Positions 20,392-53,323 of a stretch of DNA of 64,000 nucleotides are shown here, piece by piece. Source of the stretch: Siphonodentalium dalli (lineage: Eukaryota; Mollusca; Scaphopoda; Gadilida; Siphonodentaliidae). Every line of letters starts with the position of its first letter. The first letter of the stretch is position 1. Location: positions 15,128,440-15,192,439 of the forward strand of contig CP136061.1 in assembly GCA_032622095.1 (NCBI GenBank), in the 5' to 3' direction. The notes beneath the pieces are model-generated. The model was not told the DNA's origin. It saw nothing but the letters and a program-made list of their open reading frames with translations, and did no database searches. Made by a program: the position numbers and the translations under genes.

Positions 20392-20423
20392 AATCTGCAT
20401 ACCATCATATTTGTATAGATCCG

Positions 20424-20885: not shown

Positions 20886-20891
20886 GGCCAA

Positions 20892-22091: not shown

Positions 22092-22128
22092 CTATTAAGC
22101 ACATATATAATTATGTTAAATTTCATTT

Positions 22129-25290: not shown

Positions 25291-26863
25291 ACAATGACCA
25301 ACAGCAACAATGACCAACAGCAACAATGACCAACAGCGACAATGACCAACAGCAACAATGACCAACAGCAACAATGACAACAGCAACAATGACCAACAGC
25401 AACAATGACCAGGGCAACAATGACCAACAGCAACAATGACCAGGGCAACAATGACCAACAGCAACAATGACCAGGGCAACAATGACCAACAGCAACAATG
25501 ACAACAGCAACAATGACCAACAGCAACAATGACAACAGCAACAATGACCAACAGCAACAATGACCAGGGCAACAATGACCAACAGCAACAATGACCAGGG
25601 CAACAATGACCAACAGCAACAATGACCAACAGCAACACTGACCAACAGCAACAATGACCAACAGCAACAATGACCAACAGCAACAATGACCAACAGCAAC
25701 AATGACCAGGGCAACAATGACCAACAGCAACAATGACCAGGGCTACAATGACCAACAGCAACAATGACCAACAGCAACAATGACCAACAGCAACAATGAC
25801 CAACAGCAACAATGACCAACAGCAACAATGATCAACAGCAACAATGACCAACAGCAACACTGACCAACAGCAACAATGACCAACAGCAACAATGACCAAC
25901 AGCAACAATGACCAACAGCAACAATGACCAGGGCAACAATGACCAACATCAACAATGACCAACAGCAACAATGACCAACAGCAACAATGACCAACAGCAA
26001 CAATGACCAACATCAACAATGACCAACAGCAACAATGACCAACAGCAACAATGACCAACATCAACAATGACCAACATCAACAATGACCAACAGCAACAAT
26101 GACCAACAGAAACAATGACCAGGGCAACAATGACAACAGCAACAATGACCAACAGCAACAATGACCAACAGCAACAATGACCAACAGCAACAATGACCAA
26201 CAGCAACAGTGACCAACAGCAACAATGACCAGGGCAACAATGACAACAGCAACAATGACCAGGGCAACAATGACAACAGCAACAATGACCAGGGCAACAA
26301 TGACCAACAGCAACAATGACCAACAGCAACAATGACCAACAGCAACAATGACCAACAGCAACAATGACCAGGGCAACAATGACAACAGCAACAATGACCA
26401 GGGCAACAATGACAACAGCAACAATGACCAGGGCAACAATGACCAACAGCAACAATGACCAGGGCAACAATGACAACAGCAACAATGACCAGGGCAACAA
26501 TGACCAACAGCAACAATGACCAACAGCAACAATGACCAACATCAACAATGACCAACAGCAACAATGACGAACAGCAACAATGACCAACAGCAACAATGAC
26601 CAACAGCAACAATGACCAACAGCAACAATGACCAACATCAACAATGACCAACAGCAACATTGACCAGGGCAACAATGACCAACAGCAACAATGACCAACA
26701 GCAACAATGACAACAGCAACAATGACCAACAGCAACAATGACCAACAGCAACAATGACCAACAGCAACAATGACCAGCAGCAACAATGACCAACAGCAAC
26801 AATGACCAGGGCAACAATGACCAACAGCAACAATGACCAACAGCAACAATGACAACAGCAACT
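25291..26863. repeat. 16-bp minisatellite, block 2
   Basis: The same 15/16-bp units as block 1 for about 1.57 kb, with occasional CATCAAC, CAGAAAC and AACACTG variants. The order of variants repeats in block 3, showing that blocks 2 and 3 were copied as a whole. Confidence 0.95.
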
Positions 26864-27857
26864 AGAATGCACTCAGAGAGATGCCAACGTGCGCAAAAAT
26901 GTAATAAACAATAATTAAACAAATAATTTCACTGTATTTTACTTAATTTATTTAATTTAATTTAATGTTAGCAAAAAAAGACAATTACTCTTTCTCATTT
27001 CATCACAGATAAAAGGCAAATTACTATATTAATCATTTAAGTTATTAAAACCAATTCCATGTTGCCGAAAGGATGATACTTTAATATCGATTACATTTTT
27101 TTCAGCGGCATATTTTGATTTTCATTTTCCGATAGTCAAAGTTGACCAAAGGAGAAATTATAAGAAATAATTAATACAATTTGTGTAAATATTGATAGCA
27201 GCCAATATGCAACAATAAATATCAATAATTAATCAATAATTAATCAATAACGATCATTTTATGTAATAATAAACTCTTCAAACGGTGTTTGTGTCAACAA
27301 ATGCGTTTTGTTTTGTGTTACGTCATTCGTCGTATTTGACCCGGAACTCGGCTGAAGGTTAGGCTATTCAGCCTATTGCGTCGAATTACGAAATCGCGTT
27401 TTGAATGTCTCTCTTTTCCCGCACGATAAAAAGAGGTCTTCGCACGAACAAAAAATGATAAAACTTCCCAATTATAAGTAAAAATACCCAAATGAAGGAG
27501 TCTATGTATGTCCCGAAGGAGTCTATAGACTCTTTGATGTAGAGTTCTGATGGAGAAAATGTAGGTCGATCTATTTTTGTCATAACTCTGACGTATTTTG
27601 ACCTGGGAGAAAAAATCTAAATCCAGGCTCACTACGAGCATGCCAGTTTTAAATATAGAAACATGGAATCCTGACAAATGGCGATATCGGCGACAAACTA
27701 ATAATCGAAAAAAACACATAAAATAAACATAGCAAAAACGCGGCACAGTAAAAATGTCAGAACGCCACAGGGTTTTACGTCGTTTTGGTGACGTCATGGA
27801 GTGTGACACCAACCTACGAATCTGTCTGATCGCCATACTGTTTCGCGAGCGCACGTA
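26862..27857. repeat. 1-kb spacer of tandem segmental duplication, copy 2
   Basis: Copy of 24297-25290 with only a handful of differences (AAAC for AAAA near the start, one extra A after ATGAT, TTTAAATATAG for TTTAATTATAG). Spacer plus array makes a ~2.57-kb tandem duplication in intron 6. Confidence 0.9.
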
Positions 27858-29995
27858 ACAATGACCAACAGCAACAATGACCAACAGCAACAATGACCAA
27901 CAGCGACAATGACCAACAGCAACAATGACCAACAGCAACAATGACAACAGCAACAATGACCAACAGCAACAATGACCAGGGCAACAATGACCAACAGCAA
28001 CAATGACCAGGGCAACAATGACCAACAGCAACAATGACCAGGGCAACAATGACCAACAGCAACAATGACAACAGCAACAATGACCAACAGCAACAATGAC
28101 AACAGCAACAATGACCAGGGCAACAATGACCAGGGCAACAATGACCAACAGCAACAATGACCAGGGCAACAATGACCAACAGCAACAATGACCAACAGCA
28201 ACACTGACCAACAGCAACAATGACCAACAGCAACAATGACCAACAGCAACAATGACCAACAGCAACAATGACCAGGGCAACAATGACCAACAGCAACAAT
28301 GACCAGGGCTACAATGACCAACAGCAACAATGACCAACAGCAACAATGACCAACAGCAACAATGACCAACAGCAACAATGACCAACAGCAACAATGATCA
28401 ACAGCAACAATGACCAACAGCAACACTGACCAACAGCAACAATGACCAACAGCAACAATGACCAACAGCAACAATGACCAACAGCAACAATGACCAGGGC
28501 AACAATGGCCAACATCAGCAATGACCAACAGCAACAATGACCAACAGCAACAATGACCAACAGCAACAATGACCAACATCAACAATGACCAACAGCAACA
28601 ATGACCAACAGCAACAATGACCAACATCAACAATGACCAACATCAACAATGACCAACAGCAACAATGACCAACAGAAACAATGACCAGGGCAACAATGAC
28701 AACAGCAACAATGACCAACAGCAACAATGACCAACAGCAACAATGACCAACAGCAACAATGACCAACAGCAACAGTGACCAACAGCAACAATGACCAGGG
28801 CAACAATGACAACAGCAACAATGACCAGGGCAACAATGACAACAGCAACAATGACCAGGGCAACAATGACCAACAGCAACAATGACCAACAGCAACAATG
28901 ACCAACAGCAACAATGACCAACAGCAACAATGACCAGGGCAACAATGACAACAGCAACAATGACCAGGGCAACAATGACAACAGCAACAATGACCAGGGC
29001 AACAATGACCAACAGCAACAATGACCAGGGCAACAATGACCAACAGCAACAATGACCAACAGCAACAGTGACCAACAGCAACAATGACCAGGGCAACAAT
29101 GACAACAGCAACAATGACTAGGGCAACAATGACAACAGCAACAATGACCAGGGCAACAATGACCAACAGCAACAATGACCAACAGCAACAATGACCAACA
29201 GCAACAATGACCAGGGCAACAATGACAACAGCAACAATGACCAGGGCAACAATGACAACAGCAACAATGACCAGGGCAACAATGACCAACAGCAACAATG
29301 ACCAACAGCAACAATGACCAACAGCAACAATGACCAACAGCAACAATGACCAGGGCAACAATGACCAACAGCAACAATGACCAACAGCAACAATGACCAA
29401 CAGCAACAATGACCAACAGCAACAATGACCAACATCAACCATGACCAACAGCAACAATGACCATCAGCAACAATGACCAACATCAACAATGACCAACATC
29501 AACAATGACCAACAGCAACAATGACCAACAGAAACAATGACCAGGGCAACAATGACAACAGCAACAATGACCAACAGCAACAATGACCAACAGCAACAAT
29601 GACCAACAGCAACAATGACCAACAGCAACAGTGACCAACAGCAACAATGACCAGGGCAACAATGACAACAGCAACAATGACCAGGGCAACAATGACAACA
29701 GCAACAATGACCAGGGCAACAATGACCAACAGCAACAATGACCAACAGCAACAATGACCAACAGCAACAATGACAACAGCGACAATGACCAGGGCAACAA
29801 TGACAACAGCGACAATGACCAACAGCAACAATGACCAACAGCAACAATGACCAACAGCAACAATGACCAACAGCAACAGTGACCAACAGCAACAATGACC
29901 AGGGCAACAATGACCAACAGCAACAATTACCAACAGCAACAATGACCAACAGCAACAATGACCAACAGCAACAATGACCAACAGCAACAATGACC
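27858..29995. repeat. 16-bp minisatellite, block 3
   Basis: About 2.1 kb of the same units. The first ~1.3 kb follows the variant order of block 2; the end contains further internal copies of CAGAAAC and CAGTGACC motifs, so local amplification continued after the block duplication. Confidence 0.95.
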
Positions 29996-29999
29996 ATCG

Positions 30000-32700: not shown

Positions 32701-33555
32701 ATGGCTGATGCACATGTTCGCAAGTTTTATTTAAACAAGGAATGTCAGTCTCGTTGCATATCCTTCCAGTCCAAGATGGCGGACACTCGCAGAAAAATCC
32801 GTGCTCTTTTCTGTGACATTTGCCCGCATTTGCGCACATGTTTTCCGCGCATGCGTGAGACTCATTACAATCTTTTCCAATTTTGCCGTTATTGCATTCA
32901 CAAAAATGTCTTCCACTATCGACCTTACAACTTTGCTTTTCACCACACGGGTTTGGATTACAAAGGTCAATTTCTCGATCACAGAGCTTCCCTGCCATCC
33001 CAATAGGACACACACACATTACATCGTCTCCACTCACGACGCACGTGCTTCCACGGAAACATGGGTTAGGTTCGCACAAGTTCGCTTTATGTTCGCAACT
33101 TGTACCAGACGATCCTTCCGGACACTTGCATACATAGTCCGACCCTTGTTGTTCACATACAGCGTGTGATGGGCATGGTGGTTCACAGTGGTTAATGTCT
33201 TTCTCACAAAGTAGTCCGGTCTTGTCAAGAGGGCACATACAAACGTGTCTGCCGTATTTTACTTCGCACTTGGAATCGCCGTGACATGGGTTCGGATCAC
33301 ATGGGTTTATCCTGCTTTCGCAGTTTCGCCCCGTTAACGACTCTGGACATTCACATGTGTAGTGGTCTACCATATCATGACATGTCGCTTCCCCACGACA
33401 AGGTGACGATGAACACGCCTGCATGCTGACGTCACATAAATCTCCGGTCCAACCGGAAGCGCATTCACAACGAGGAGAGACGAGTTCTATGCACGTGCCT
33501 CCGTTATTGCACGTGACATCTGCGCACATATCCACTTCAGTGTCACAATATTTTC
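32701..33555 (-). CDS. Exon 5: EGF repeats 4 to 10
   Basis: A large exon of 855 bp, phase 1 to 1, with acceptor CATTTATTTTTCAG|GA and donor GCCAT|GTAAGT. Seven consecutive EGF repeats follow, with linkers such as TEVDMC, ESRINPC, EKDINHC and DREIDLC. These approximate the calcium-binding linker but lack its full consensus. Repeats 6, 8 and 9 have unusual second loops (CHGDSKC, CFRGSTC, CGEKQSC) instead of NGGTC. Repeat 10 ends CPPSWTGRIC. The last residues NETDIPCLNKTCEHVHQP begin a cysteine pair that is not completed as an EGF in exon 6. NET, NES and NKT are possible N-glycosylation sites. Fusing seven EGFs in one exon suggests past intron loss. Confidence 0.93.
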
Positions 33556-34692
33556 CTGAAAAATAAATGGCAATCATCAAATATTTGAGTGCACGAATGC
33601 GATATTACCACCGTAGCATGGTATTACGTCATCAGAAGGCACAACATAATGAGAAGCATTAGTTTTAATTTGAAGCTGCCCACATTCCGAAGTTATTGTG
33701 ACCAATTTGAACTCATAATTTACTATGACAACCGCCTTATCATGCATGCTGAAGGGTACACGGGTTTGCTATCAACACTGGCGTTACTTAAACTGTTTTC
33801 CCAAAAGTTTGGCGCCCATCAGCAGTTTTCAGTTCATTTTAGTTTTCTTTGGAAGTAAACAATTATTCTCTGAAAACTAAGCGCAACTTAGAACAAGATT
33901 TCAAAATCTGATTACCGTTCAGCAATTGTTCAAAACATGTATACCCACGTCAGCGTTATCATACTGGCGTTACAGTGGATGACAAACAACCGGTCCCTAT
34001 CACCATAAAACAAGTTTGTAAAAACAACAAAATCATTCAACATTTATATGCGACACCAGTGATTATAAATGGTGGTGTTATAGACATATATATGCGACAC
34101 CAGTGATTATAAATGGTGATGTTATGGACACCACGTTTGGTGTGAGCTCATTCCGAGACAAAGACGAATAGCTGTTTGAAAACAAATATTGCTACTCGTT
34201 TGTGGGAAATTAGGATGTTCGTCGTTGAGGGAAATTCCTCCGCCTCGAATGTCAGTAATACGAACACGAGTATATATATACAGATGATACATTTGTCTTT
34301 TCCGCGAATGGCATAATTGACGGTAGCCACTCAAAAACACTAGATATGATCTTTATTATACACAATTGCAAAGACATTTACCATTTATGACAATAAATGT
34401 TCACGCTATCGCCTTCAATAAATGTTCACGCTATCGCCTTCAATAAATGTACCAAAGCTAACTTCTGATCGCTGCCCGTTAACGCAATCTTACTTCACCA
34501 TCATCATAATAGAGACATACAATTATTCGATTCCGTTTCTTCCTTCGAATTGTCATGCAACATTTTAGATATACTGTTATTGGAACTTTTATTATTGAAA
34601 GTGAATATAATTCAAATTAAAACAATAACAAGTGGTTCCTTAACTTTGTAGCCGAGCCCCTTGTTATGATTATGATGTACTGCAGGGATCAT
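33556..34692. other. Intron 4, non-array part
   Basis: No exon seen. A ~60-bp direct duplication ATATATGCGACACCAGTGAT... is at 34045-34125, and AATAAATGTTCACGCTATCG + CCTTC is tandemly doubled near 34390-34445. Confidence 0.45.
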
Positions 34693-35347
34693 ACCTGTAA
34701 ATCCTGGCGGGCATCTACACGTATAATCGTTAAGTTCATCCTGACTGCACGGTGATCCTACCTGTAAATCCTGGCGGGCATCTACACGTATAATCGTTAA
34801 GTTCATCCTGACTGCACGGTGATCCTACCTGTAAATCCTGGCGGGCATCTACACCTATACTCGTTAAGTTCATCCTGACTGCACGGTGATCCTACCTGTA
34901 AATCCTGGCGGGCATCTACACGTATAATCGTTACGTTCATCCTGACTGCACGGTGATCCTACCTGTAAATCCTGGCGGGCATCTACACGTATAATCGTTA
35001 AGTTCATCCTGACTGCACGGTGATCCTACCTGTAAATCCTGGCGGGCATCTACACGTATACTCGTTAAGTTCATCCTGACTGCACGGTGATCCTACCTGT
35101 AAATCCTGGCGGGCATCTACACGTATACTCGTTAAGTTCATCCTGACTGCACGGTGATCCTACCTGTAAATCCTGGCGGGCATCTACACGTATAATCGTT
35201 AAGTTCATCCTGACTGCACGGTGATCCTACCTGTAAATCCTGGCGGGCATCTACACGTATACTCGTTAAGTTCATCCTGACTGCACGGTGATCCTACCTG
35301 TAAATCCTGGCGGGCATCTACACGTATACTCGTTAAGTTCATCCTGA
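34693..35347. repeat. 67-bp minisatellite, 10 copies, derived from exon 4 end plus its donor
   Basis: Each unit, read on the minus strand, is 50 nt of exon 4 (from TCAGGATGAACTTAACG to GGATTTACAG) followed by GTAGGATCACCGTGCAG. Nine intronic copies follow the true exon end at 35298. Every unit has a GTAGGA donor, and the unit junction GTGCAG|TCAGG looks like an acceptor. The last copy (34.69 kb) has GTATGATCCCTGCAG. Reading through the first unit gives a stop (TGA) after GRITVQSG. Confidence 0.95.
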
Positions 35348-35525
35348 CACGTGGCACCATTCATGCAGTCGTTACCAAGGCAGTTATCGGCTCTCTCCTC
35401 ACATATGGTCCCTGTCCACCCACGTGGACACTTGCAGCGTACTCCTGAGTCGGTTTCTGCGCAGCTTCCGCCGTTAAGACACGTATTTCCAGCACAGACA
35501 CGCGATAGCTGGTCGCATTTAGTCC
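35298..35525 (-). CDS. Exon 4: EGF repeats 2 and 3
   Basis: The acceptor is TTTATGTAACAG|GG and the donor TTTACAG|GTAGGA, phase 1 to 1. It encodes two EGF domains: C-AGNT-C-LNGGS-C with KCPRGWTGTIC, then C-LGND-C-MNGAT-C with RCPPGFTG, whose last cysteine (KYC) is in exon 5. The GW/GF-TG motifs and cysteine spacing are textbook. The last 50 nt of this exon with the first 17 nt of the intron form the unit of the adjoining 67-bp array, so this donor is the first of ten copies. Confidence 0.93.
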
Positions 35526-35793
35526 CTGTTACATAAACAGTAACCATAGTTTGTAGTTTACAAGCAACTAAATAAATAGTTTTACATTTCTTGAAGTCAT
35601 AGAAAAAGTTACAAAAATGTGTGTGTTACATATAATGTTATCATGCGCAATGATATGGTATATATAAGTTACCAACAATAGCATAGAGTTGTGCTTCTTT
35701 TATGCGCATAACAGTTAACAAGCCTCACAGATTAAGTTATAATCCGCAATGATGTGGTGTATGTTACAATTACATAGAGTTACGCTCCTTTAA

Positions 35794-37824
35794 CTTGTTT
35801 ATGACCGGAGCTGCATTGGGGGCAGCATTAAGGTTACACTGGTGTAAATGTTTTCCATAGGACTCAGTGCTAACGTTTTAGCGTATAGTGTTGGCAATAT
35901 AAATGTTGGGTCCAAAATTTTCTTTAAATCTGAAAAATTGACATTTTGGGAAACTTTTTACCAAAAAAAATCATGTCTGTCTAGCAGGGAATTCGCCTTT
36001 AAATCTGATGTTTTCGTAACTAGTGTCAGAACCGCATAAAAAAATACAGTCATATTTTAGACCACACCAAAAAATTCAAACTTCACTACAAAGGGTTAAT
36101 TCCTGTGCCAATGGTTATTTTACCTATGGGAAATCATAGGGAAGAGGTGTGATGATTTTTTTATGTGAAAAGCACACAAGGCTATTGACCAATCAGGGCA
36201 CAGTGTCTATTTTATTCTCTCCTATATATTCCTCCCGCATCCGCTAGATGTCACTCGGAACCTTATTTACACCAGTGTAACCTAAAGCGATAGCCCGCTT
36301 TTTCGCGGAATAATTGTAACTCCCTACATTTCTTCAGAATTGCCCATCAATGGAAAAAATGTGTTCAAAAACAATATCACTTCTGTGGTTCTTTATTTAT
36401 CACACACAATTTAACCCCACCCTCTTTAACAAATTATTCATCAAAAAAGCACAATTTTCCACCACCAGTCATGTTCAGGCCCCATTTCACTCAGTTTTAG
36501 GGGTCTGGTGTTGCAAACTTGGATCAGCCATGGAAGACTGTTCAATATTCTTTCCATGAGAGAACTTCTGGTGATGTGCGGTCATTGAGTCCAGATCTGA
36601 TCAGCTGAGCATCAAGCGCATGACTTTATCAGCACATTGAAGAATAAAATATGACATTTTCAGGTCTGCAAGGGTGATCCAAGATAACTGGATGTGGGTG
36701 TATATTGAATTAGTTGAATAAAGATATGCTCTCTTTGAATTGCTGAAGCATTTTCTTAAATGTGTCCAAGTTTTAGTGCTATTAACCTTCAAATGACCAT
36801 ACCCACCAGTGGAAATGACACACTTTTATGATATATATCTGTATATCACTGGCTATAAAATCCAAAATACTTGTTAAATTAGGTTCTTATAACAATTGAT
36901 ATATGTGTCGTTGACATGCCCATGTTATGGGTCATTTGCATTATCATGTGACTATTACCACCTTGAAATTTTTTGAAAATACCTTGAAAAATTGGCATTT
37001 TTTATGAAAAATCTTACTATTTTTTTGGCTGATGTAAGTGAAAGAAGACATCAGCAGCAAGAATAGCCACATCAAGCATGAGATATTCATTGGACTGAAA
37101 GACCAGGCTCTGTAAAATGCATTAAAATGCTTTAAAGTGACTCACAGGAATCAAAAATGATAAAAAGCTATTTTTTCCCTTTAGGTTACACTGGTGTAAA
37201 TGTTTTCCATAGGACTCAGTGCTAACGTTTTAGCGTATAGTGTTGGCAATATAAATGTTGGGTCCAAAATTTTCTTTAAATCTGAAAAATTGACATTTTG
37301 GGAAACTTTTTACAAAAAAAAATCATGTCTGTCTAGCAGGGAATTCGCCTTTAAATCTTATGTTTTCGTAACTAGTGTCAGAACCGCATAAAAAAATACA
37401 GTCATATTTTAGACCACACCAAAAAATTCAAACTTCACTACAAAGGGTTAATTCCTGTGCCAATGGTTATTTTACCTATGGGAAATCATAGGGAAGAGGT
37501 GTGATGATTTGTTTATGTGAAAAGCACACAAGGCTATTGACCAATCAGGGCCCAGTGTCTATTTTATTCTCTCCTATATATTCCTCCCGCATCCGCTAGA
37601 TGTCACTCGGAACCTTATTTACACCAGTGTAACCTTAAGATAATGTGTTATTGCATTCTCGAGCCTCGCATATATAAGAGAATGCACTGACTTACAAGAC
37701 CAAAGTAAATATTGTTAGGCAAATGTATTATCGTATATATGCGAGGCTTCCTATGTGAGACTCGACTATATAAGCGAATGCATTCGCACAGGGTTTTCGC
37801 AAAAGCTCATTCATGGAAGGGTTG
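35794..37824. mobile_element. MITE family B copy interrupted by a 1.8-kb element
   Basis: The left part 35794-35831 (ACCGGAGCTGCATTGG) and right part 37635-37824 (two hairpins, ending GCTCATTCATGGAAGGGTT) are the two pieces of one family B MITE, split at an internal TTAA. The inserted element is annotated separately. Confidence 0.7.
35832..37634. mobile_element. Nested 1.8-kb element with 451-bp terminal direct repeats, copy I
   Basis: Direct repeats at 35832-36282 and 37184-37634 (451 bp each, about four mismatches seen) flank 901 bp. Each repeat itself begins GGTTACACTGGTGTAAAT and ends with the inverse. The whole is flanked by TTAA on both sides inside a MITE. Repeats contain a 60-residue open frame (FSIGLSANVLAYSVG...), a GACCAATCAGG (inverted CCAAT) and CTATATATTC. 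No protein family is recognised in the centre. It looks like a non-autonomous LTR-type element or a composite of two MITEs. Intron 3. Confidence 0.75.
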
Positions 37825-37867
37825 ATGCACAAGACCAGCCAACTCGTCTTACAGTCTTACTCGTCTT

Positions 37868-38050
37868 ATGGTCGACTCGCATATATAAGAGAATGCATTG
37901 GCACAGGGCATAACTGTAACCATCACAATGTGGTCAATGAGCCGGTTCCAATGATATCCATATTTGTATGGTTTTATTGAGACAGACCCAAGATAATTTA
38001 GGCTGTTGCAGCTTTATTTGGCCGTTTTGGCCGGTTTGTTGGGTAAAGGG
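37868..38050. mobile_element. TTAA-type MITE (family A), half copy, reverse orientation
   Basis: Reverse complement of the left half of the 14.08-kb element, from the middle of the first hairpin to the TGTTGGGTAAAGGG end and its TTAA. The other half is missing, replaced by family B sequence. Confidence 0.8.
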
Positions 38051-38055
38051 TTAAA

Positions 38056-38300
38056 TGTTCATGTAGGTTCATACTGGACGTATTTGATTCTGATATAAGC
38101 CCATAGTGGACGTATGCACGTTATTCCGTGTTATGACGTGGGCCACGATGAAAACACATTATAAAGAGCATACATCTCGTCGATTCAGGTTCATATATAG
38201 AGCGTAATGCTGCTGATTCAAATAATGCCGATATGGGCTTGAAATTGAAATGGTTTGAAATAAGTTCAATAATTATTAGTTTATTTTCAGGAGAGCATGT
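38056..38300. repeat. Dispersed repeat, copy 2
   Basis: Partner of 6508-6700. It directly follows a half MITE. After it, 38300-39030 (intron 3) is non-coding and includes a strikingly C/A-rich stretch (38640-38960, CCAAACCCACCAATCTCCAA type) with no gene. Confidence 0.6.
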
Positions 38301-39032
38301 TGAGTTGTTACGTGCAATGAATTTTCCATAACAAGAGGATGGCCATGCTTCCTATATGATTTTTCCGACAATTTCCCAAAATATCTATAATAATACATTC
38401 AGTCTCCATATCGTTATTGGTCTATAATGGTTTATTATCGTAAATCGACGTCAGTGGTTAAGATAGCGTGATCAATTGGTCAACTCTCGCATCAATCTTA
38501 ATTCATCATAGCTCTAAACTCATACAATATCGGAACACTGATTTACATGCACCTATACGTATAGACGCGACCATTGCTTACTCGATCAATTACTCACTCG
38601 CTCGTCTATAAACGCAAGCAGAATCAAACAATCAGTCAGTAATCCAAACCCACCAATCTCCAATTCCCACCACCCATCGAACTCAAAACCCCATCCACCA
38701 AACCACCGCACTATACACAATAACACAACCCATAATCCACACACGTCTCACATGCACACTCCCTCTGCCAAGTTCATACTCACTCAAAAACAACCCCACC
38801 CACACATGCACACACTTTTGTTTTTAACAACCCAATCCTCACAGAAATCTCACCCAAAACCCAGACACCCACATATACCCACCTATTCACACGTGCACTC
38901 ACTCAATCGTTAGTTCGCTCGCTAGCTTACCTACTCACCAACCCTCATCAAAAGAGCCACGTGTTTCCCATCCAGACGAAATCCAGACATCCACCTAACC
39001 CACGCACTCACTCGCTACTTACTTATACTTAC

Positions 39033-39146
39033 CAGTGTAGCCTGCGTGGCACGAACATATATGGTCATCATCGGCGGGTAGGCATGTTCCATGGTTACAT
39101 GAGTTTGATGCACACATTCCCCTCGTTGCCATGCAGGTTTCTATTC
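39033..39146 (-). CDS. Exon 3: end of DSL and EGF repeat 1
   Basis: The acceptor is TTTCTAGATTCAG|GA and the donor ACACTG|GTAAGT. Phase is 1 at both ends, the symmetrical class typical of EGF exons. It encodes IETCMATRGMC, finishing the DSL cysteine set, then a standard EGF core: C-ASNS-C-NHGT-C, eight residues, C-S-C-HAGYTG. The sixth EGF cysteine is in exon 4. It lies 7.7 kb from exon 2 across the 65-bp array and 3.5 kb from exon 4 across an intron holding nested transposons. The cysteine order and clean splice sites make this exon secure. Confidence 0.88.
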
Positions 39147-41370
39147 CTGAATCTAGAAATTATATAATTGGTGTGTTAGGGCTTCGTCGGTCTAGCTCCA
39201 ACGTTAATATGGTTACTATAGGGACGTGCCCCTTATTCCATTATCATTTATAATTTAGATGCTCCAGCTCTGTATCATATACTACCTGAAACATGTGTGC
39301 GCTTCGGAAGCCTTTATTCAGCGGCGTAGGGAGCTGCGGTCTATGTTTGCGCTTCGAGAGCCTTTGGTTAGTGGCTTTGCGCACATGTTTGATGTTTTGT
39401 TTTATTTTTAGAATGTGCTCCTTGCTAATTTTTTGAAGAACTGAGGCGTTCCAACAACCGTCGGGATACTTCTAGTCACCCCAACAAATCTGGTTGAAAT
39501 AGGCCATGGGACTCGCGAACAGATAGACATTATACAGACGGAAGGATAGACAGACAAACATATTCTACATTTTATGTAGATATTTGTATATCGCCCATAC
39601 TGATTACTTTCTGGTGCCATTTTCAAGACAAAATGTGAAATTCCGTACGATCAGTTGTTACCCCATAAACAATTTGAAATCCCGATAAAGGTTACCCCAT
39701 TGTGTGATTTCAGAAGTGGTTGGTCAGGTTATCTGAAACACCTCTATTGGGCCAAACAGGAAGCGGAAAGCAAACTGCACAGCTTTATCATATATCAGTC
39801 GCATTTGCTTACAAACTTAGCCATACCCACGTGAAACACATTCCCTGTTTATGTCTCTGGCATCGAAGATATCTTACACAAATAGCCATACTCACGCGTA
39901 ACACATCCCCTGTTTGTGTCTCTGATATCGAAGCTATCTTGCAAACTTAGCCAACAACGTGAAACACATTCCCTGCCTATGTCTCTGGCATCGAAGGTAT
40001 CGTACAAACTTAGACATACTCAAGTGTAACATATTCCCTGTCTGTGTCTCTGGCACCGAAGGTATCGTACAAACTTAGCCATACTCATGTGTAACACATT
40101 CCCTGTTTGTGTCTCTGAGATCGAATATATCTTACAAACTTAGCGCTAACCACGTGAAACACATTCCTTGTTTGTGTCTCTGGCATCAAGTATATCGTAC
40201 AAACTTAGCCATACTCACGTTTAACACATTCCCTGTGTGTGTCTCTGGCATCGAAGATATCTTACAATCTTAGCCATACTCACGTGAAACACATTCCCTG
40301 TTTGTGTCTCTGATGTCGAATATATCTTACAAACTTAGCCATACACACGTGTAACACATTCCCTATTTGTGTCTCTGAGATCGAATATATCTTACAAACT
40401 TAGCCATACTCACGCTTAACACATTCCATGTTTGTATCTCTGACATCGAAGATATCTTACAAACTTAGCCATATTCACGTGTAACACATTCCCTGTTTGT
40501 GTCTCTGGCATCGAAGATATCTTACAATCTTAGCCATACTCACGTGAAACACATTCCCTGTTTGTGTCTCTGATGTCGAATATATCTTACAAACTTAGCC
40601 ATACACACGTGTAACACATTCCCTATTTGTGTCTCTGAGATCGAATATATCTTACAAACTTAGCCATACTCACGCTTAACACATTCCATGTTTGTATCTC
40701 TGACATCGAAGATATCTTACAAACTTAGCCATACTCACGTGTAACACATTCCCTGTCTGTGTCTCTGAGATCGAAGCTATCTTAGAAATTTAGCCATACT
40801 CACGTGAAACACTTTCCATTTTTGTGTTCTCTGAGATAGAAGATATCTTACAAACTTAGCCATACTCACGTGAAACACATTCCCTGTTTGTGTTCTCTGA
40901 GATAGAAGATATCTTACAAACTTAGCCATGCTCACGTGAAACACATTCCCTGTTTGTGTCTCTGAGATCGAATATATTTTACAAACTTAGCCATACTCAC
41001 GTGTAACATATTCCCTGTTTGTGTCTCTGGCATCGAATATATCTTACAAACTTAGCCATACTCACGAGTAACACATTCCCTATTTGTGTCTCTGAGATCG
41101 AAGATATCTAAAAAATTTAGCCATGCTCACGCTTAACACATTCCCTGTTTGTGTTCTCTGAGATCGAAGATATCTTACAAACTTAGCCATGCTCACGTGA
41201 AACACATTCCCTGTTTGTGTCTCTGAGATCGAATATATCTTACAAACTTAGCCATACTCACGTGTAACATATTCCCTGTTTGTGTCTCTGGCATCGAATA
41301 TATCTTACAAACTTAGCCATACTCACGAGTAACACATTCCCTATTTGTGTCTCTGAGATCGAATATATCT

Positions 41371-43514
41371 TACAAACTTAGCCATACTCACGTGTAACAC
41401 ATTCCCTGTTTGTGTCTCTGACACCGAAGATATATTACAAACTTAGCCATACTCACGTGAAACACATTCCCTGTTTGTGTCTCTGACACCGAAGATATAT
41501 TACAAACTTAGCCATATTCACGTGTAACACATTCCCTGTTTGTGTCTCTGGCATCGAATATATCTTACAATCTTAGCCATACTCACGCTTAACACATTCC
41601 CTGTTTGTGTCTCTGGCATCGAATATATCTTACAATCTTAGCGCTAACCACGTGAAACACACTCCCTGTTTGTGTCTCTAGCATCGAAGCTATCTTACAA
41701 ACTTAGCCATACTCACGTGTAACACATTCCCTGTTTGTATCTCTGGCATCGAAGCTATCTTACAAACTTAGCCATACACACGTGTAACACATTCTCTGTG
41801 TGTGTCTCTGGCATCGAAGATATCTTACAAACTTAGCCATACTCACGTTTAACACATTCCCTGTTTGTGTCTGTGAGATCGAAGATATATTACAAACTTA
41901 GCCATACTCACGTGTAACACATTCAATGTTTGTGTCTCTGAGATCGAAGATATCTTACAAACTTAGCCATACTCACTTGTAACACATTCCCTGTTTGTGT
42001 CTGTGAGATCGAAGATATATTACAAACTTAGCCATACTCACGCTTAACACATTCCTGTTTGTGTCTCTGAGATCGAATATATATTACAAACTTAGCCATA
42101 CTCACGTGAAACACATTCCCTGTTTGTGTTCTCTGAGATCGAAGATATCTTACAAACTTAGCCATACTCACGTGAAACACATTCCCTGTTTGTGACTGTG
42201 AGATCGAAGATATATTACAAACTTAGCCATACTCACGTGTAACACATTCCTGTTTGTGTCTCCGATATCGAATATATCTTACAAACTTAGCCATACTCAC
42301 GTGTAACATATTCCCTGTTTGTGTCTCTGGCATCGAAGCTATCTTACAAACTTAGCCATACTCACGTTTAACACATTCCCTGTTTGTGTCTCTGGCATCG
42401 AAGCTATCTTACAAACTTAGCCATACTCACGTGTAATATATTCCCTGTTTGTGTCTCTGGCATCGAAGATATCTTACAAACTTAACCATAATCACGTGTA
42501 ACACATTCCCTGTTTGTGTCTGTGAGATCGAAGATATATTACAAACTTAGCCATACTCACGCTTAACACATTCCTGTTTGTGTCTCTGAGATCGAATATA
42601 TCTTACAAACTTAGCCATACTCACCTGAAACACATTCCATGTTTGTGTTCTCTGAGATCGAAGATATCTTACAAACTTAACCACACTCACGTGAAATATA
42701 TTCCTTGTTTGTGTCTCTGACATCGAAGATATATTACAAACTTAGCCATACTCACGAGTAACACATTCCCTGTTTGTGTCTCTGGCATCGAAGATATCTT
42801 ACAAACTTAGCCCTACTCACGAGTAATATATTCCCTATTTGTGTCTTTGGCATCGAAGATATATTACAAACTTAGCCATACTCACGCTTAACACATTCCT
42901 GTTTGTGTCTCTGAGATCGAATATATCTTACAAACTTAGCCATACTCACCTGAAACACATTCCATGTTTGTGTTCTCTGAGATCGAAGATATCTTACAAA
43001 CTTAGCCACACTCACGTGAAATATATTCCTTGTTTGTGTCTCTGACATCGAAGATATATTACAAACTTAGCCATACTCACGAGTAACACATTCCCTGTTT
43101 GTGTCTCTGGCATCAAGGATATCTTACAAACTTAGCCCTACTCACGAGTAATATATTCCCTATTTGTGTCTTTGGCATCGAAGATATATTACAAACTTAG
43201 CCATACTCACGTGAAACACATTCCCTGTTTGTGTCTCTGAGATCGAAGATATCTTACAAACTTAGCCATACACACGTGTAACACATTCCCTGTTTGTGTC
43301 TTTGGCATCGAAGATATCTTACAAACTTAGCCATATTCACGTGTAACACATTCCCTGTTTGTGTCTGTGAGATCGAAGATATATTACAAACTTAGCCATA
43401 CTCACGCTTAACACATTCCTGTTTGTGTCTCTGAGATCGAATATATCTTACAATCTTAGCCATACGAGTAACACATTCCCTGTTTGTGTTCTCTGAGATC
43501 GAATATATCTTACA
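41371..43514. repeat. Higher-order segment of the 65-bp array, copy 1
   Basis: About 2.14 kb of the array, 33 units with the same order of variants, recurs at 43706-45849 with an offset of 2335 bp. I noticed only one or so base differences in the parts compared, so the duplication is recent. A five-unit block near 42.55 kb also recurs about 325 bp later. Confidence 0.85.
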
Positions 43515-43705
43515 AACTTAGCCATACTCACGCTTAACACATTCCTGTTTGTGTCTCTGAGATCGAATATATCTTACAAACTTAGCCATACTCACCTGAA
43601 ACACATTCCATGTTTGTGTTCTCTGAGATCGAAGATATCTTACAAACTTAGCCACACTCACGTGAAATATATTCCTTGTTTGTGTCTCTGACATCGAAGA
43701 TATAT

Positions 43706-45849
43706 TACAAACTTAGCCATACTCACGTGTAACACATTCCCTGTTTGTGTCTCTGACACCGAAGATATATTACAAACTTAGCCATACTCACGTGAAACAC
43801 ATTCCCTGTTTGTGTCTCTGACACCGAAGATATATTACAAACTTAGCCATATTCACGTGTAACACATTCCCTGTTTGTGTCTCTGGCATCGAATATATCT
43901 TACAATCTTAGCCATACTCACGCTTAACACATTCCCTGTTTGTGTCTCTGGCATCGAATATATCTTACAATCTTAGCGCTAACCACGTGAAACACACTCC
44001 CTGTTTGTGTTTCTAGCATCGAAGCTATCTTACAAACTTAGCCATACTCACGTGTAACACATTCCCTGTTTGTATCTCTGGCATCGAAGCTATCTTACAA
44101 ACTTAGCCATACACACGTGTAACACATTCTCTGTGTGTGTCTCTGGCATCGAAGATATCTTACAAACTTAGCCATACTCACGTTTAACACATTCCCTGTT
44201 TGTGTCTGTGAGATCGAAGATATATTACAAACTTAGCCATACTCACGTGTAACACATTCAATGTTTGTGTCTCTGAGATCGAAGATATCTTACAAACTTA
44301 GCCATACTCACTTGTAACACATTCCCTGTTTGTGTCTGTGAGATCGAAGATATATTACAAACTTAGCCATACTCACGCTTAACACATTCCTGTTTGTGTC
44401 TCTGAGATCGAATATATATTACAAACTTAGCCATACTCACGTGAAACACATTCCCTGTTTGTGTTCTCTGAGATCGAAGATATCTTACAAACTTAGCCAT
44501 ACTCACGTGAAACACATTCCCTGTTTGTGACTGTGAGATCGAAGATATATTACAAACTTAGCCATACTCACGTGTAACACATTCCTGTTTGTGTCTCCGA
44601 TATCGAATATATCTTACAAACTTAGCCATACTCACGTGTAACATATTCCCTGTTTGTGTCTCTGGCATCGAAGCTATCTTACAAACTTAGCCATACTCAC
44701 GTTTAACACATTCCCTGTTTGTGTCTCTGGCATCGAAGCTATCTTACAAACTTAGCCATACTCACGTGTAATATATTCCCTGTTTGTGTCTCTGGCATCG
44801 AAGATATCTTACAAACTTAACCATAATCACGTGTAACACATTCCCTGTTTGTGTCTGTGAGATCGAAGATATATTACAAACTTAGCCATACTCACGCTTA
44901 ACACATTCCTGTTTGTGTCTCTGAGATCGAATATATCTTACAAACTTAGCCATACTCACCTGAAACACATTCCATGTTTGTGTTCTCTGAGATCGAAGAT
45001 ATCTTACAAACTTAACCACACTCACGTGAAATATATTCCTTGTTTGTGTCTCTGACATCGAAGATATATTACAAACTTAGCCATACTCACGAGTAACACA
45101 TTCCCTGTTTGTGTCTCTGGCATCGAAGATATCTTACAAACTTAGCCCTACTCACGAGTAATATATTCCCTATTTGTGTCTTTGGCATCGAAGATATATT
45201 ACAAACTTAGCCATACTCACGCTTAACACATTCCTGTTTGTGTCTCTGAGATCGAATATATCTTACAAACTTAGCCATACTCACCTGAAACACATTCCAT
45301 GTTTGTGTTCTCTGAGATCGAAGATATCTTACAAACTTAGCCACACTCACGTGAAATATATTCCTTGTTTGTGTCTCTGACATCGAAGATATATTACAAA
45401 CTTAGCCATACTCACGAGTAACACATTCCCTGTTTGTGTCTCTGGCATCAAGGATATCTTACAAACTTAGCCCTACTCACGAGTAATATATTCCCTATTT
45501 GTGTCTTTGGCATCGAAGATATATTACAAACTTAGCCATACTCACGTGAAACACATTCCCTGTTTGTGTCTCTGAGATCGAAGATATCTTACAAACTTAG
45601 CCATACACACGTGTAACACATTCCCTGTTTGTGTCTTTGGCATCGAAGATATCTTACAAACTTAGCCATATTCACGTGTAACACATTCCCTGTTTGTGTC
45701 TGTGAGATCGAAGATATATTACAAACTTAGCCATACTCACGCTTAACACATTCCTGTTTGTGTCTCTGAGATCGAATATATCTTACAATCTTAGCCATAC
45801 GAGTAACACATTCCCTGTTTGTGTTCTCTGAGATCGAATATATCTTACA
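43706..45849. repeat. Higher-order segment of the 65-bp array, copy 2
   Basis: Near-identical partner of 41371-43514, same orientation. It gives the array a two-level structure: 65-bp monomers inside a 2.3-kb higher-order unit. Confidence 0.85.
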
Positions 45850-46822
45850 AACTTAACCATACACACGTGTAACACATTCCCTGTGTGTGTCTTTGGCATC
45901 GAAGATATCTTACAAACTGAGCCATACTCACATGAAACACATTCCATGTTTGTGTCTGTGGCATCGAAAATATCTTACAATCTTAGCCATACCTACGTGA
46001 AACACATTCCATGTTTGTGTCTCTAGCATCGAAGATATCTTACAATCTTAGCCATACTCACGTGTAACACATTCCCTGTTTGTGTCTTTGGCATCGAAGA
46101 TATCTTACAAACTGAGCCATACTCACGTGAAACACATTCCATGTTTGTGTCTGTGGCATCGAAGATATCTTACAATCTTAGCCATACTCCCGAGTAACGC
46201 ATTCCCTGTTTGTGTCTCTGAGATCGAATATATCTTACAAACTTAGCCATACCTACGTGAAACACATTCCATGTTTGTGTCTCTAGCATCGAAAATATCT
46301 TACAAACTTAGCGCTAACCACGTGAAACACATTCCCTGTGTGTGTCTCTGAGATCGAAGATATCTTACAAACTTAGCCATACTCACGCTTAACACATTCC
46401 CTGTTTGTGTCTCTGATATCTAAGATATCTTACAAACTGAGCCATACTCACGTGTAACACATTCCCTGTTTGTGACTCTGAGATCGAATATATCTTACAA
46501 ACTTAGCCATACGTGAAACACATTCCCTGTTTGTGTCTCTGGCATCGAAGATATCTTACAATCTTAGCCATACGTGAAACACATTCCATGTTTGTGTCTC
46601 TGGCATCGATGATATCTTACATACTTAGACATACGTGTAACACATTCCCTGTTTGTGTCTCTGAGATCGAATATATCTTACAAACTTAGCCATACGTGAA
46701 ACACATTCCCTGTTTGTGTCTCTGGCATCGAAGATATCTTACAATCTTAGCCATACGAGTAACACATTCCATGTTTTTGTTCTCTGAGATCGAATATATC
46801 TTACAAACTTAGCCATACTCAC

Positions 46823-46932
46823 GTGAAACACATTCCCTATTTGTGTCTCTGAGATCGAAGACTTCGCACACATCCGAGCACTCCTTCCCACAGTACGACG
46901 CTGAACAGTATACTTTGACCTCTATATGTAAC
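46823..46932 (-). CDS. Exon 2: DSL domain (Delta/Serrate/LAG-2)
   Basis: The acceptor is CATCCATTTTAG|G and the donor TTCAC|GTGAGT. The 36 codons read LHIEVKVYC-SASYCGKEC-SDVC, then eleven residues, then C. Cysteine spacing 8-3-11-6 follows the DSL pattern C-x3-Y-x-G-x2-C-x3-C-x11-C. The remaining two DSL cysteines come from exon 3 (IETC, GMC). DSL is the Notch-binding module of canonical ligands. Divergent points: an extra cysteine in place of the second aromatic (YCG), and no GW near the end. The flanking intron array is built from the last ~38 nt of this exon plus its donor. The open frame continues upstream of the acceptor, so a longer exon (to about 47050) cannot be excluded. Confidence 0.75.
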
Positions 46933-47119
46933 CTAAAATGGATGTATGCTGGCAGTTCAAGTGCATGTCCCACGAAAACGACCATTGTGTGCGGCATTTC
47001 GAATGCCCCGACTTCGGTAATTGTTTTCAACAGATGGAAATTCCATGTGTGAAACAACATCACTTGGAATCTTCATACCAAACCACGTGCATGGGAGATC
47101 GACAAGACCAAACTACCTA

Positions 47120-47630
47120 CACGCGAAGTCGACAAGAGGTCGGTAAAACGAAAACACGGGCACGGAGGTCGGTAAGACGAAACCACGTACACGGGAGGTC
47201 GGTAAGACCAAACCGCGTGCACGGGAGGTCGGTAAGACCAAACCACGTACACGGGAGGTCGGTAAGACCAAACCACGTGCACGGGAGGTCGGTAAGACCA
47301 AACCACGTACACGGGAGGTCGGTAAGACCAAACCACGTACACGGGAGGTCGGTAAGACCAAACCACGTGCACGGGAGGTCGGTAAGACCAAACCACGTAC
47401 ACGGGAGGTCGGTAAGACCAAACCACGTACACGGGAGGTCGGTAAGACCAAACCACGTACACGGGAGGTCGGTAAGACCAAACCACGTACACGGGAGGTC
47501 GGTAAGACCAAACCACGTGCACGGGAGGTCGGTAAGACCAAACCACGTACACGGGAGGTCGGTAAGACCAAACCACGTACACGGGAGGTCGGTAAGACCA
47601 AACCACGTACACGGGAGGTCGGTAAGACAT
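47120..47630. repeat. 30-bp minisatellite in intron 1
   Basis: About 17 copies of a GC-rich unit GGTCGGTAAGACCAAACCAC + GTACACGGGA, highly uniform, with a few GTGCAC variants. All six frames stay open because the period is a multiple of three, so the 10-residue repeat RSVRPNHVHG is an artefact. The unit contains GGTCGGTAAGACC-type short symmetry and a CACGTAC/CACGTGC core. Confidence 0.93.
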
Positions 47631-48088
47631 TTACTCATTTTCATCATAATTAGCATGTTTTACGTCGCTCGCATTGCACATGATTGTATTTTGCTCACAA
47701 TTTATTTGTTGAATATTATTTGTCGAACATAGTAGGAGATGGTTCCAGCCAATAGCTGAATTTAGTGTACAGCACCCCATTAATCCTTTCAGTGCAAAGT
47801 CATGCAATTGAGTCATTGTTTCATCAAATAATGCTAAAGTACGCTTCTAACCAATTATTTTAACCAATTAATTAAGAATACAAGTAGGTTGACTCTGTTC
47901 TTTCGCATTTCCTCCATGTGGGCCGCGATGCGTTTCGATTCGATTTGATTTTGAATTTTCCATGGTTCGTAAATAGTATATGTTTTAAATATCAAAGTTG
48001 TGTAACAAAATAAATATATACGGTACTTCGCTTCACTCCCATCTTTCATTTTGGCTGTTGTATGGTATACAATACCAATCAACTTGAC

Positions 48089-48356
48089 AAACGTGCTTCC
48101 TTCCTGCACTCTATCCCTCTACCCCCTCCTAGAACAATATTTTTTCGGATCTAACATGATATCCCGTCTGCTAAATTTACCCTATATTGGTATCTATTTT
48201 GATACCAAGGGTAAAACTTTTATTTCGAGGAAAAGACTCGATAAAAGCCTTTCAGGCTTGTTATCTAATCCCCATTTTTGAACATGTGTTGTATATTATG
48301 TCAATTTGTTTGTATGTGTTAAATGTTCTGTTCGAAAATTAAATATTGTTTACACT
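48089..48356. repeat. Dispersed repeat (LINE/SINE 3'-end-like), copy 1
   Basis: CTTCCTGCACTCTATCCCTC ... ATAAAAGCCTTTCAGGCTTG ... GTTCGAAAATTAAATATTG. About 80-85% like 57062-57338. The AATAAAAGCC-hairpin and A-rich end resemble retroposon 3' ends. Intron 1. Confidence 0.65.
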
Positions 48357-48389
48357 AAGTCCGATTTTTGTATCAACCCATATACCATG

Positions 48390-48807
48390 TGCAATGCATT
48401 CTCTTAGATATGCGAGTCGACCATAGGTCGCCTCGCATATATAAGAGAATGCATTGGCCTAACATTTTTCATCATTTGTTATTATTTTTTATAATTTTTT
48501 ACAATTTTAATATTTTTTTCTTATATTCTTTAACAGACTTATTTTGTAGGTTTAGTGCCAGGGAATCTTACGTTTTTCATGGGCATCAAACTTATTACTA
48601 TGAATACTTGGTGATAGTTTTGAGTTATAACATGCCCCTAAGGTTTTATCAAGTTTGTTTTTAAATTCGCCGTAGCATGCTTAAGCATACCCAAAACAAT
48701 TCAACCCAAAACAAAAACAATTTTTTTTTTTTTTTTTTTTTTAGGGCCGATCTTACAGACCATAAATTAGGGCCGATGAGATCAGCCCCTGGCACTGAAA
48801 GGGTTAA
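48390..48807. mobile_element. MITE relic with family A hairpin and TTAA end
   Basis: A hairpin at 48390-48457 with one mismatch in the left arm is followed by a T/A-rich stretch, a run of 20 or more T (48720-48742), and the end GGCACTGAAAGGG-TTAA at 48803-48807. The left TTAA end is not clear. Intron 1. Confidence 0.55.
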
Positions 48808-48809
48808 GA

Positions 48810-49642
48810 CAACCGTTAAGACAACCGAACAACGTGCACGCACATGATATATCGCAGTGGTCGGTGTCATAACAGTTAGACTCAAAACTCACGTGATTGT
48901 ATTTGTTAATCAATACATTTTACACGATGAATACAACGGGACTATCTTGTGGTCGTATCTGATATGTCAGAACTGGGGGCAGAAGTGCAAACAAAATACA
49001 TACTAATAATAATCGACAATGTCCATGCTGGTTGAGAGAATATTTGTATAGAGTAGAGCGCAGCAATATAGAATATTATACATATTTGACTAGGTTGCGA
49101 CTATAAACACTGTACCATGCTAGATAATGGTTTATATATATATAATTTGTATTAAAAATGGATTATCTCTTAAAACAACACATGTTAGATACTTTCCTGG
49201 ATATGAAATAACGCGTATGAGTTGGAAATCCATGCCCGATAATGACTATCAATGTGTGAGGAAATCATTAGGATCTTTGTCTGAAATTATTTTGTCTGCA
49301 AAATTGGGCCCAATTTTGGTGTAGAATTCATTCAATTATTCTGCAATTTGGATTTTTACATTTAAATACTTATTTTTGTGTAAGAATTGTGATGATCCAT
49401 GATGTGAAACCGCCTGAATATTCGCTATAGTCACGTGATACGGCGATCAGTGTACGATCAGGTGTTGCATGACCTAAGTTTTACGATCTTGGGTGTGGTA
49501 TTATAGGCTGAAAGGCACAGTCGGGAAATAATCACATGAAGCGATGTTCAATACCTATACAAGGCATTTTGAGACATCTAGGGTGATGTAACACGGCGTC
49601 CGATGTAGAGTCAAATGGCGCGATGCATGATTCGTGTCCTAC
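48810..49642. other. Intron 1, no further exon
   Basis: No exon recognised next to the exon 1 donor. ACACGGCGTCCGATGTAGAG near 49590 echoes the hairpin core at 15.2 kb. Confidence 0.35.
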
Positions 49643-49860
49643 CTTTTGGATGACCGAGGGTTTGGTAACCATAGCGACACAGGCAAAGCTACTCTGCTAC
49701 TAGCTGAAGCCGCGGTTCGTATTGTTTTAGATAATGTCGTCACCAGTGTTGTTTCGCTCCGACTTCTGGAATGATCCACCCGAACCTTCAGCTTCGCCTG
49801 GCCCTGTACAAAAGAAAATAAGGAAACCATAGTCAGAAATGGTAACGGCGTCAAGATCAT
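49643..49860 (-). CDS. Exon 1: leader and N-terminal region of the DSL-EGF protein
   Basis: The frame opens at the first ATG (49858-49860) after an in-frame TAA upstream. It begins MILTPLPFLTMVSLFSFVQG, a plausible signal peptide, followed by about 53 residues. The exon ends AAAAG|GTAGGA in phase 2, matching the phase-2 acceptor of the DSL exon. The stretch RVALPVSLWLPNP resembles the LPF-F-WP motif at the end of the MNNL (C2) domain of Delta/Jagged, and the preceding KLKVRVDH resembles its FRVCLKH strand, but the family cysteines are missing. Alternative: the leader codons TTATTTTCTTTTGTACAG also make a strong 3' splice site. This could therefore be an internal exon (49643-49803, phase 0) with the start further upstream, or a terminal exon of another frame ending DDII. 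The domain is far shorter than a normal MNNL. Confidence 0.5.
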
Positions 49861-51223: not shown

Positions 51224-51511
51224 AGGGTCAGGTAATCCCTGCTAGACTGGAGACTCCAGTTAGCAATGTCCAATACCCGACTCTTTTGCACTGCGCCAAC
51301 ACAGCTTCGTGGATTAAGTTCATAAGCCTAATCCAAAACTGTCTCACCGGCGTTAATCACGAGGGCAGCTGCACCCGGATGCGCGACCACACGACTCACC
51401 CGTGCTCAACGCTCTGACAGAGAGGAACTAATGCAACCGAAGCAACCACGACTGGTTCGCTCCACTCCCTGCCAGAGTATAGCCGGCATCGGCGTCAACA
51501 AACACTTTATA

Positions 51512-53323
51512 GGAATCACTGAACTAAATGGTTTCCCATAGGCGACAGTGTTAACGTTTCGGCCAAATTCACTGAATTGAAGCCTGCAGGCCATACCAGT
51601 GATGTTTACCCAGCTAGAATGACAACAGTTGATCACGAAAATGCAAGAAAAATCATAGGTCATGTGTTTACTTTTTTAAATAAATCCCCAAGTCTACGAC
51701 AGGGCTATCTCACAGCCAAATTTGATCTGGAAAAACCCAGAACTACAGCAGCTAGTTAAATAAATTTCCCGCTCACAAAAATCCATTCCCCCATTCATTC
51801 ACCAGTTTAAATTATTTAGATATTATGTACAAATCAAATAAACGCGATGTCACCCTTTAATAACGTGTCGCATGTATCAGGTGAAGGTCATTCTGCAGTT
51901 ACCTTCACCTTTCCACGGTGTACTCGGTGTACTCGCTCCCCGACTCTAGAACACATTTAGCTCCCTGATTCCTATATATATGTATATGTGTGAAACACAG
52001 CGTTTCTTATAGTATTTTATCAAAATATAGACCTTACTGAAATCAAAAATGGATTATATCGAGCAGTAGTGGTTTATTTTTCCAATATGAGGCATCTTGA
52101 AAATTATTGTCCATCCTCAAAATAAAGCCAAAAAAATTAGATTTGTTTTTCAATTTTACTAGCTGATGCATCTCGTATAACTGAAGTATGCCCTTATATG
52201 CCATAATATTACTAAATTGAAGAGGAAATGTTAATGTACATTTTGAGAGGGATATCTTATCCAATTTTAAACACTTTTCATGCAGAATTTGGCAATTTAT
52301 AATAAACATTTACCAAAATTAACAGAAAATAAAAATAAAAAATACTTTAATAGCAATATAAAGCAACCATAAGTCAATTTAAATATCTAAACATAGTGAT
52401 ACAGTATCAGACACAGCTTCAGGCATGACATTTTACCAGATGGCAGGGCATACTGTCTGTTTAAAAAACCTGCCATGACAATTTTGCACGACAGTAACTC
52501 TAGTGGTGGTGCCATAACCCCCCCCCCCCGACTTGGGGTGGGGCTACGGTCCCCGATAAAACTACTGGGGGTGCCGGAAAAGTTTAATTGGGTCAACTGT
52601 CACATTTTCCCAATGGGCGGGGGGGCTAACACTCCTCAAAATTGTGGGGATGGGTCTTTAGACCCCCCTGACCCGCTAATGGTACCTGATGTCCATGCAA
52701 AATTCCCAGATTTGTCACTTTCTTTACTATATACAGGCGAATCCATGGGTTTCTTCTTCAAATATGTCCAAAATTTGGTCATTATCATTTGAAAATAAGA
52801 AAATATGGAATTAACAACTTATCATGGCGAGACGTGAAATTTCGTAAAATTCAAATTGTTCTTATAGGAATCACTGAACTAAATGGTTTCCCATAGGCGA
52901 CAGTGTTAACGTTTCGGCCAAATTCACTGAATTGAAGCCTGCAGGCCATACCAGTGATGTTTACCCAGCTAGATTGACACCAGTTGATCACGAAAATGCA
53001 AGAAAAATCATAGGTCATGTGTTTACTTTTTTAAATAAATCCCCAAGTCTACGACAGGGCTATCTCACAGCCAAATTTGATTTGGAAAAACCCAGAACTA
53101 CAGCAGCTAGTTAAATAAATTTCCCGCTCAATAAATCCATTCCCCCATTCATTCACCAGTTTAAATTATTTAGATATTATGTACAAATCAAATAAACGCG
53201 ATGTCACCCTTTAATAACGTGTCGCATGTATCAGGTGAAGGTCATTCTGCAGTTACCTTCACCTTTAGCATTCCACGGTGTACTCGCTCCCCGACTCTAG
53301 AACACATTTAGCTCCCTGATTCC
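51512..53323. mobile_element. 1.8-kb element with ~460-bp terminal direct repeats, copy II
   Basis: Direct repeats at 51512-51972 and 52867-53323 flank 894 bp. Repeat ends are GGAATCACTGAACTAAATG and the near-inverse, flanked by TATA. A 60-70 residue open frame (GDSVNVSAKFTELK to TTAAS) occurs in both repeats, nearly identical. The first 40 bp (TAAATGGTTTCCCATAGG, CAGTG, TAACGTTT) are clearly related to the repeat of copy I, and the overall dimensions match (461/894/457 versus 451/901/451). The centre has a run of C and G-rich patches but no recognisable gene. Confidence 0.75.

Follow-up and report, generated by a model that had tools for sequence, protein, structure and literature searches.

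How does a gene live with an intron that consists largely of copies of its own 5′ splice site? The question is raised by a 64,000-nucleotide stretch of DNA from the scaphopod mollusc Siphonodentalium dalli (GenBank assembly GCA_032622095.1, contig CP136061.1, positions 15,128,440 to 15,192,439; the whole stretch is referred to here as the window, and positions below are counted from its first letter). On its minus strand a predicted gene with a DSL-like exon and several EGF exons carries a minisatellite of 65-bp units, each of which repeats the end of that exon together with the start of the following intron. Such repeats at exon edges are already described, as the "mirages" of lancelets and as the variable number tandem repeat (VNTR) in intron 18 of human ABCA7, and the array in the window is a further and very long case. 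On the evidence of its sequence, the most likely reading of the array is as a by-product that the gene tolerates and that splicing largely passes over. To the exon-edge minisatellites of lancelets and man the locus adds a case of great length, with another in the same gene, and, with 73 intact copies behind its real donor, it offers a ready test of how the spliceosome chooses the first among near-equal sites. Exon-edge arrays have also been proposed as one source of new introns, according to the excerpted text of PMC3087553.

A 65-bp array built from the end of an exon

Tandem Repeats Finder (TRF) places the array at 39808-46861 with a period of 65, 109.0 copies and 88% matches, and wrap-around alignment to a cyclic consensus likewise divides it into 109 units, from unit 1, starting at 46860, to unit 109, starting at 39868. 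An earlier note, made from the letters of this DNA, had counted about 108 units of 65 bp that contain an exon end and had taken the first of them for the real exon, and both statements hold: unit 1, the first in transcript order, starts inside predicted exon A and is made up of the last 38 nt of that exon and its donor. Each unit consists of 38 nt resembling the end of exon A followed by 27 nt resembling the start of the intron, and in total the array fills 7,015 bp of the 7,670-bp intron between exons A and B. Allowing three mismatches or fewer, the 26-nt junction CACGTGAGTATGGCTAAGTTTGTAAG is matched 95 times across the window and 0 times in 100 shuffles. The elements to which we refer below are these:

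49643-49803, minus strand: tentative exon upstream of exon A, 161 nt; its phase fits and it has no domain match
46823-46932, minus strand: predicted exon A, 110 nt, DSL-like; flanked by AG and GT, phase 2 to 1, with the cysteine spacing described below
46814-46822, minus strand: predicted true 5′ splice site GTGAGTATG, the first bases of the intron
39808-46861, minus strand: exon-edge minisatellite with a 65-bp unit; TRF and unit alignment give 109 units, that of the exon counted
46551-46795 and on to 46490, minus strand: units 2-5 and unit 6, the copies nearest to exon A, with the donor lost through a shared 4-nt deletion
46446-46451, minus strand: first intact decoy GTGAGT, in unit 7; its use would give an exon of 481 nt, not 110 nt
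39033-39152, minus strand: predicted exon B, 120 nt, phase 1-1, EGF; first exon beyond the array
35298-35525, minus strand: predicted exon C, 228 nt, with two stretches of EGF; the second array has the end of this exon as its unit 1
34679-35348, minus strand: second exon-edge array, 67 bp, 10.0 copies, 98% matches in TRF
32701-33555, minus strand: predicted exon D, 855 nt, EGF repeats

The 109 units comprise 66 distinct sequences. A block of 33 units is present twice, units 17-49 matching units 53-85 at 98-100% in the one assembly used, which reflects either a recent block duplication, and thus growth of the array, or an assembly duplicate. Microhomology at the seams, judged by eye, amounts to about one base per seam and is uninformative. 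Rfam gave 0 matches at its gathering threshold, and a 34-nt piece of the unit had 0 exact matches in viral contigs.

The predicted host gene

The exons are predictions from the minus strand, each with an AG before and a GT after, and the phases agree at every junction of the chain (2, 1, 1, 1). Exon A ends at 46823, and the hexamer GTGAGT starts with the donor G at 46822. The translation of exon A, LHIEVKVYCSASYCGKECSDVCEVFDLRDTNRECVS, spaces its cysteines as C-x8-C-x3-C-x11-C with YxG, the same arrangement as in Delta-like 1 when the two are compared by eye in an alignment. Across all six frames of the window, exact 8-3-11 spacing with YxG is found a single time, and a looser cysteine pattern turns up on average 0.03 times per shuffled window (60 shuffles). 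Pfam returned no match for the frame of exon A alone, and in joined pieces the DSL profile stayed below its cut-off of 24.2, at 12.1 bits for a 54-residue piece and 10.5 bits for one of 136 residues. Queried with the exon A part, the PDB gave antibody chains as its best hits (E 0.21), while Delta-like chains scored E 2.6 and 6.4. In the frames of exons B, C and D, which follow the DSL-like region, Pfam matches EGF, and a longer piece that includes EGF repeats matches Delta-like 1 at 6.8e-54, mostly via its EGF part. The "DSL exon" of the earlier note is thus best worded as DSL-like, the cysteine spacing being exact and the profile scores lying under threshold.

Read-through past the true donor ends in ...CVSREYG and then a stop; of the codons that include intron bases this stop is the fifth, just as the earlier note had stated when it placed a stop within five codons.

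Splice donors within the array

GTGAGT is intact in 73 of the 108 copies, or 74 of the 109 units when the true one is included, and GTGAGTATGG is found 65 times in 39808-46900, again with the true one. The spliceosome would therefore meet many decoys, as had been noted, but the figure of "about a hundred near-identical donors" is too high. The hexamer is intact in 67.9% of units, which ranks it 36th of 65 among six-column windows of the unit (median 65.1%), and column conservation is 90.7% in the exon-derived part and 94.7% in the intron-derived part. Because the donor is conserved at about the median and the exon columns are no better kept, there is no sequence sign of selection for donors or for coding sense; conservation near the median of the unit fits a neutral expansion, tolerated through choice of the first donor.

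The copies closest to the exon lack the donor altogether. Units 2-6, and also units 17 and 53, have GTATGG in place of GTGAGTATGG through a shared 4-nt deletion; with the donor gone from units 2-6, the distance from the real donor downstream to the first intact decoy is 371 nt.

A second exon-edge array in the same gene

The array at 34679-35348, overlooked in the earlier note, is built like the 65-bp array, from the end of exon C (35525-35298). Its 67-bp unit contains the last ~49 nt of the exon and the donor GTAGGATCAC, which is intact at nine of the ten sites, the true one counted, and read-through from exon C into the array gives CPPGFTGRITVQSG and then a stop.

The 67-bp unit also contains ACAG/GTAGGA, where an acceptor-like and a donor-like sequence meet at one point. 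All ten sites read TTTACAG/GT, a coincidence of the two signals such as is seen in recursive splice sites. Recursive splicing was not adopted as an explanation, the 65-bp consensus, CAC/GT, being unable to work in this way.

Known repeats at exon-intron boundaries

As far as the excerpted text of the two lancelet papers goes, mirages occur in Adh3, the globins BflGb6 and BflGb9, troponin C and PGBD5, their AG/GT signals are held by many but not all copies, and the data suggest that regular splicing is undisturbed (PMC3087553, PMC3902484). The mirages of Adh and troponin C are said there to yield no aberrant mRNAs, and the same is suggested for PGBD5 (PMC3902484). Mirages vary in length, with somatic instability seen at Adh3 (PMC3087553), where the units measure 10-72 bp (PMC3087553, PMC3902484). 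The arrays in the window resemble mirages in that the 65-bp and 67-bp units span the exon-intron boundary and the terminal unit is the predicted exon edge, and in that the splice signals are kept in many, though not all, copies (73/108 in the longer array, 9/10 in the shorter with the true site). They differ in size, with 109 units in the longer array against three and six in the two BflGb6 haplotypes and two to seven in PGBD5, in the excerpts and leaving Adh3 out of the comparison. The BflGb6 array, as described there, repeats the acceptor side, whereas the gene in the window has two separate arrays on the donor side. Unlike in lancelet mirages, the five nearest donors of the longer array are deleted.

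The excerpted account of the ABCA7 VNTR describes a repeat that begins with the exon-18 donor, has a 25-bp unit starting at GT and forms kilobase-long alleles, one of 9,711 bp, with retention of one unit at about 2%, independent of length (PMC5954066). Measured against that account, the 65-bp array likewise adjoins an exon, includes its donor and is kilobases long, but its units do not begin at GT and also carry 38 nt of exon. For the VNTR, in contrast to the array in the window, an effect on splicing is known.

More distantly related cases, again from excerpts, are the RdRp gene of potato, in which a duplication across an exon-intron boundary supplied new splice sites (PMC4974935), and the human internal tandem repeats that occur at such boundaries (PMC2812944). 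Intron gain by tandem duplication shares with our locus the duplication of a boundary, but the copies in the window sit inside an existing predicted intron. A search of the literature, made without a species name, brought up no paper that we took to deal with this locus. A minisatellite with multiple splice donors was reportedly described by Turri in 1995 from a human interferon-induced transcript (6-16), the product of the gene IFI6.

Origin and likely behavior of the array

We regard it as probable that the 65-bp array is a mirage, that is, an exon-boundary duplication grown by unequal exchange, largely neutral, with the first donor used. The earlier note had offered neutral expansion of an exon-edge duplication as its fall-back, and we judge this the best reading. 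The open frame, the matching splice phases, the DSL cysteine spacing and the second array of like construction give good support to an origin at the exon edge. We infer that the seed was a tandem duplication across the boundary between the end of exon A and its intron, and that the array was then enlarged within the intron by unequal exchange. When transcribed, it would add 73 intact 5′ splice sites downstream of the real donor. The spliceosome would presumably still take the first donor, because this closes the normal 110-nt exon rather than one of 481 nt as at the next intact copy, and would mostly ignore the others; occasional use of an array copy would yield a message with an early stop.

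Several observations weigh against a purely passive array. Five distant copies (units 25, 30, 51, 61 and 66) read CAG/GTGAGT, for which we calculate pairing with U1 at -11.9 kcal/mol compared with -5.5 kcal/mol for the true CAC/GTGAGT. These stronger-pairing copies are uncomfortable for such a reading, and because the pairs 25/61 and 30/66 lie 36 units apart the five represent about three independent units. Retention of the donor is also uneven, GTGAGT being kept in 7/20 of units 2-21 and in 66/88 of units 22-109 (Fisher 0.0011); over the rest of the unit the two groups have equal identity (0.926 and 0.925, respectively). Within the gene (32701-49803), two of the three arrays with at least ten units start at an exon end, whereas random upstream edges give at least two of three in 0.117% of trials, a post hoc figure from one gene, which suggests that something may favour the seeding or keeping of arrays at such places. 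Lastly, in ABCA7 the skipping of exon 19 rises with VNTR length, according to the excerpted text (PMC5954066).

The loss of donors from units 2-6 resembles the removal of near competitors, but it may be a single event spread over neighbouring units. With distinct sequences only, the donor is kept in 7/19 of units 2-21 and 32/46 of the remainder (p 0.025), but when the shared GTGA deletion is counted once the loss near the real donor is not significant (7/15 vs 32/46, p 0.13). The far end of the array is donor-poor as well (3/10 distinct units in 97-109 vs 29/36 in 22-96), and in the more uniform 67-bp array the donors directly beside the exon are intact. For these reasons we do not claim a selective purging of near decoys. 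A related proposal, that exon ends are preferred seeds of minisatellites in this genome and that selection silences only those decoys within reach of exon definition, so that distant and even stronger copies persist, builds on the five donor-less nearest copies and the 481-nt exon that the first intact one would need. We consider it quite unlikely; if true, it would make the array a natural graded experiment on the reach of exon definition.

Should the array act at all, the outcome to expect from ABCA7 is that exon B, 120 nt long and in frame, is skipped, and not that the copies are used. Donor choice would then be about unchanged, and array length or bound splicing factors would raise the skipping, with a protein lacking that EGF segment as the product. 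The array is placed as the ABCA7 VNTR is, whose length raises exon 19 skipping (PMC5954066, in excerpt), and the length of exon B is a multiple of three and its phases are equal, but one human case is a thin precedent and the lancelet mirages reportedly leave regular splicing undisturbed (PMC3087553, PMC3902484, in excerpts), so an effect of this type seems to us unlikely. We give the least credence to a selected array, its copies being retained because they bind U1 or because they supply a regulated, non-productive splicing that restrains the output of the gene. Retention of GTGAGT in 73 of the 108 copies, the five sites that pair more strongly than the true one and the in-frame stop met on read-through would suit such a device, but the hexamer is of only about median conservation among the windows of the unit and the nearest copies have lost it. 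U1 sequestration and isoform control, both raised in the earlier note, consequently find no support here, given the unexceptional donor columns, the five donor-less neighbours and the early stop on read-through. Finally, exon A might be mispredicted or the gene broken, the array then being an ordinary intergenic or intronic minisatellite with a chance open edge. The missing Pfam match for exon A alone, the DSL scores of 10.5-12.1 bits and the antibody chains that precede the Delta-like ones in the PDB search would all be expected in that case. Against this stand the exact cysteine spacing, found once in six frames and with its looser form rare in shuffles, the agreement of phases on both sides of exon A, the EGF exons that follow and the second array, which sits on a clear EGF exon, and we regard misprediction as very unlikely.

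Other repeats and elements in the window

The window is rich in minisatellites, with 21,658 bases in 22 arrays (from the TRF list, short arrays left out). A donor scan of 14 array consensus units, using donor frequencies, ranked the arrays at 34679, 39808, 47136, 2824 and 9778 as the five best, and each was equalled by 38-80 of 500 shuffles. Since shuffles reach the best scores, the score alone singles out no array, the two exon-edge arrays included. By eye, no exon was seen next to 2824-3763 or 9778-10345. The array at 2824-3763 has a 19-bp period, 49.5 copies and 98% matches, and on the minus strand its unit, GGGTAGGATCATGTAATAA, has GTAGGATCA in common with the donor of exon C. In the intron just before exon A, 47136-47628 holds a 30-bp array (16.5 copies, 96%) whose plus-strand units read the donor-like TCG/GTAAGA; no exon was found there.

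A 16-bp repeat, ACCAACAGCAACAATG, extends over kilobases at 23905-29996 and apparently also repeats as blocks some 2.6 kb long. On the plus strand, 19183-22533 contains retroelement-like open frames, and one of the four scanned (20382-20885) matches Pfam RVT_1. The segments 51406-51759 and 52851-53114, about 1.4 kb apart, have near-identical translations and are perhaps copies of a mobile element.
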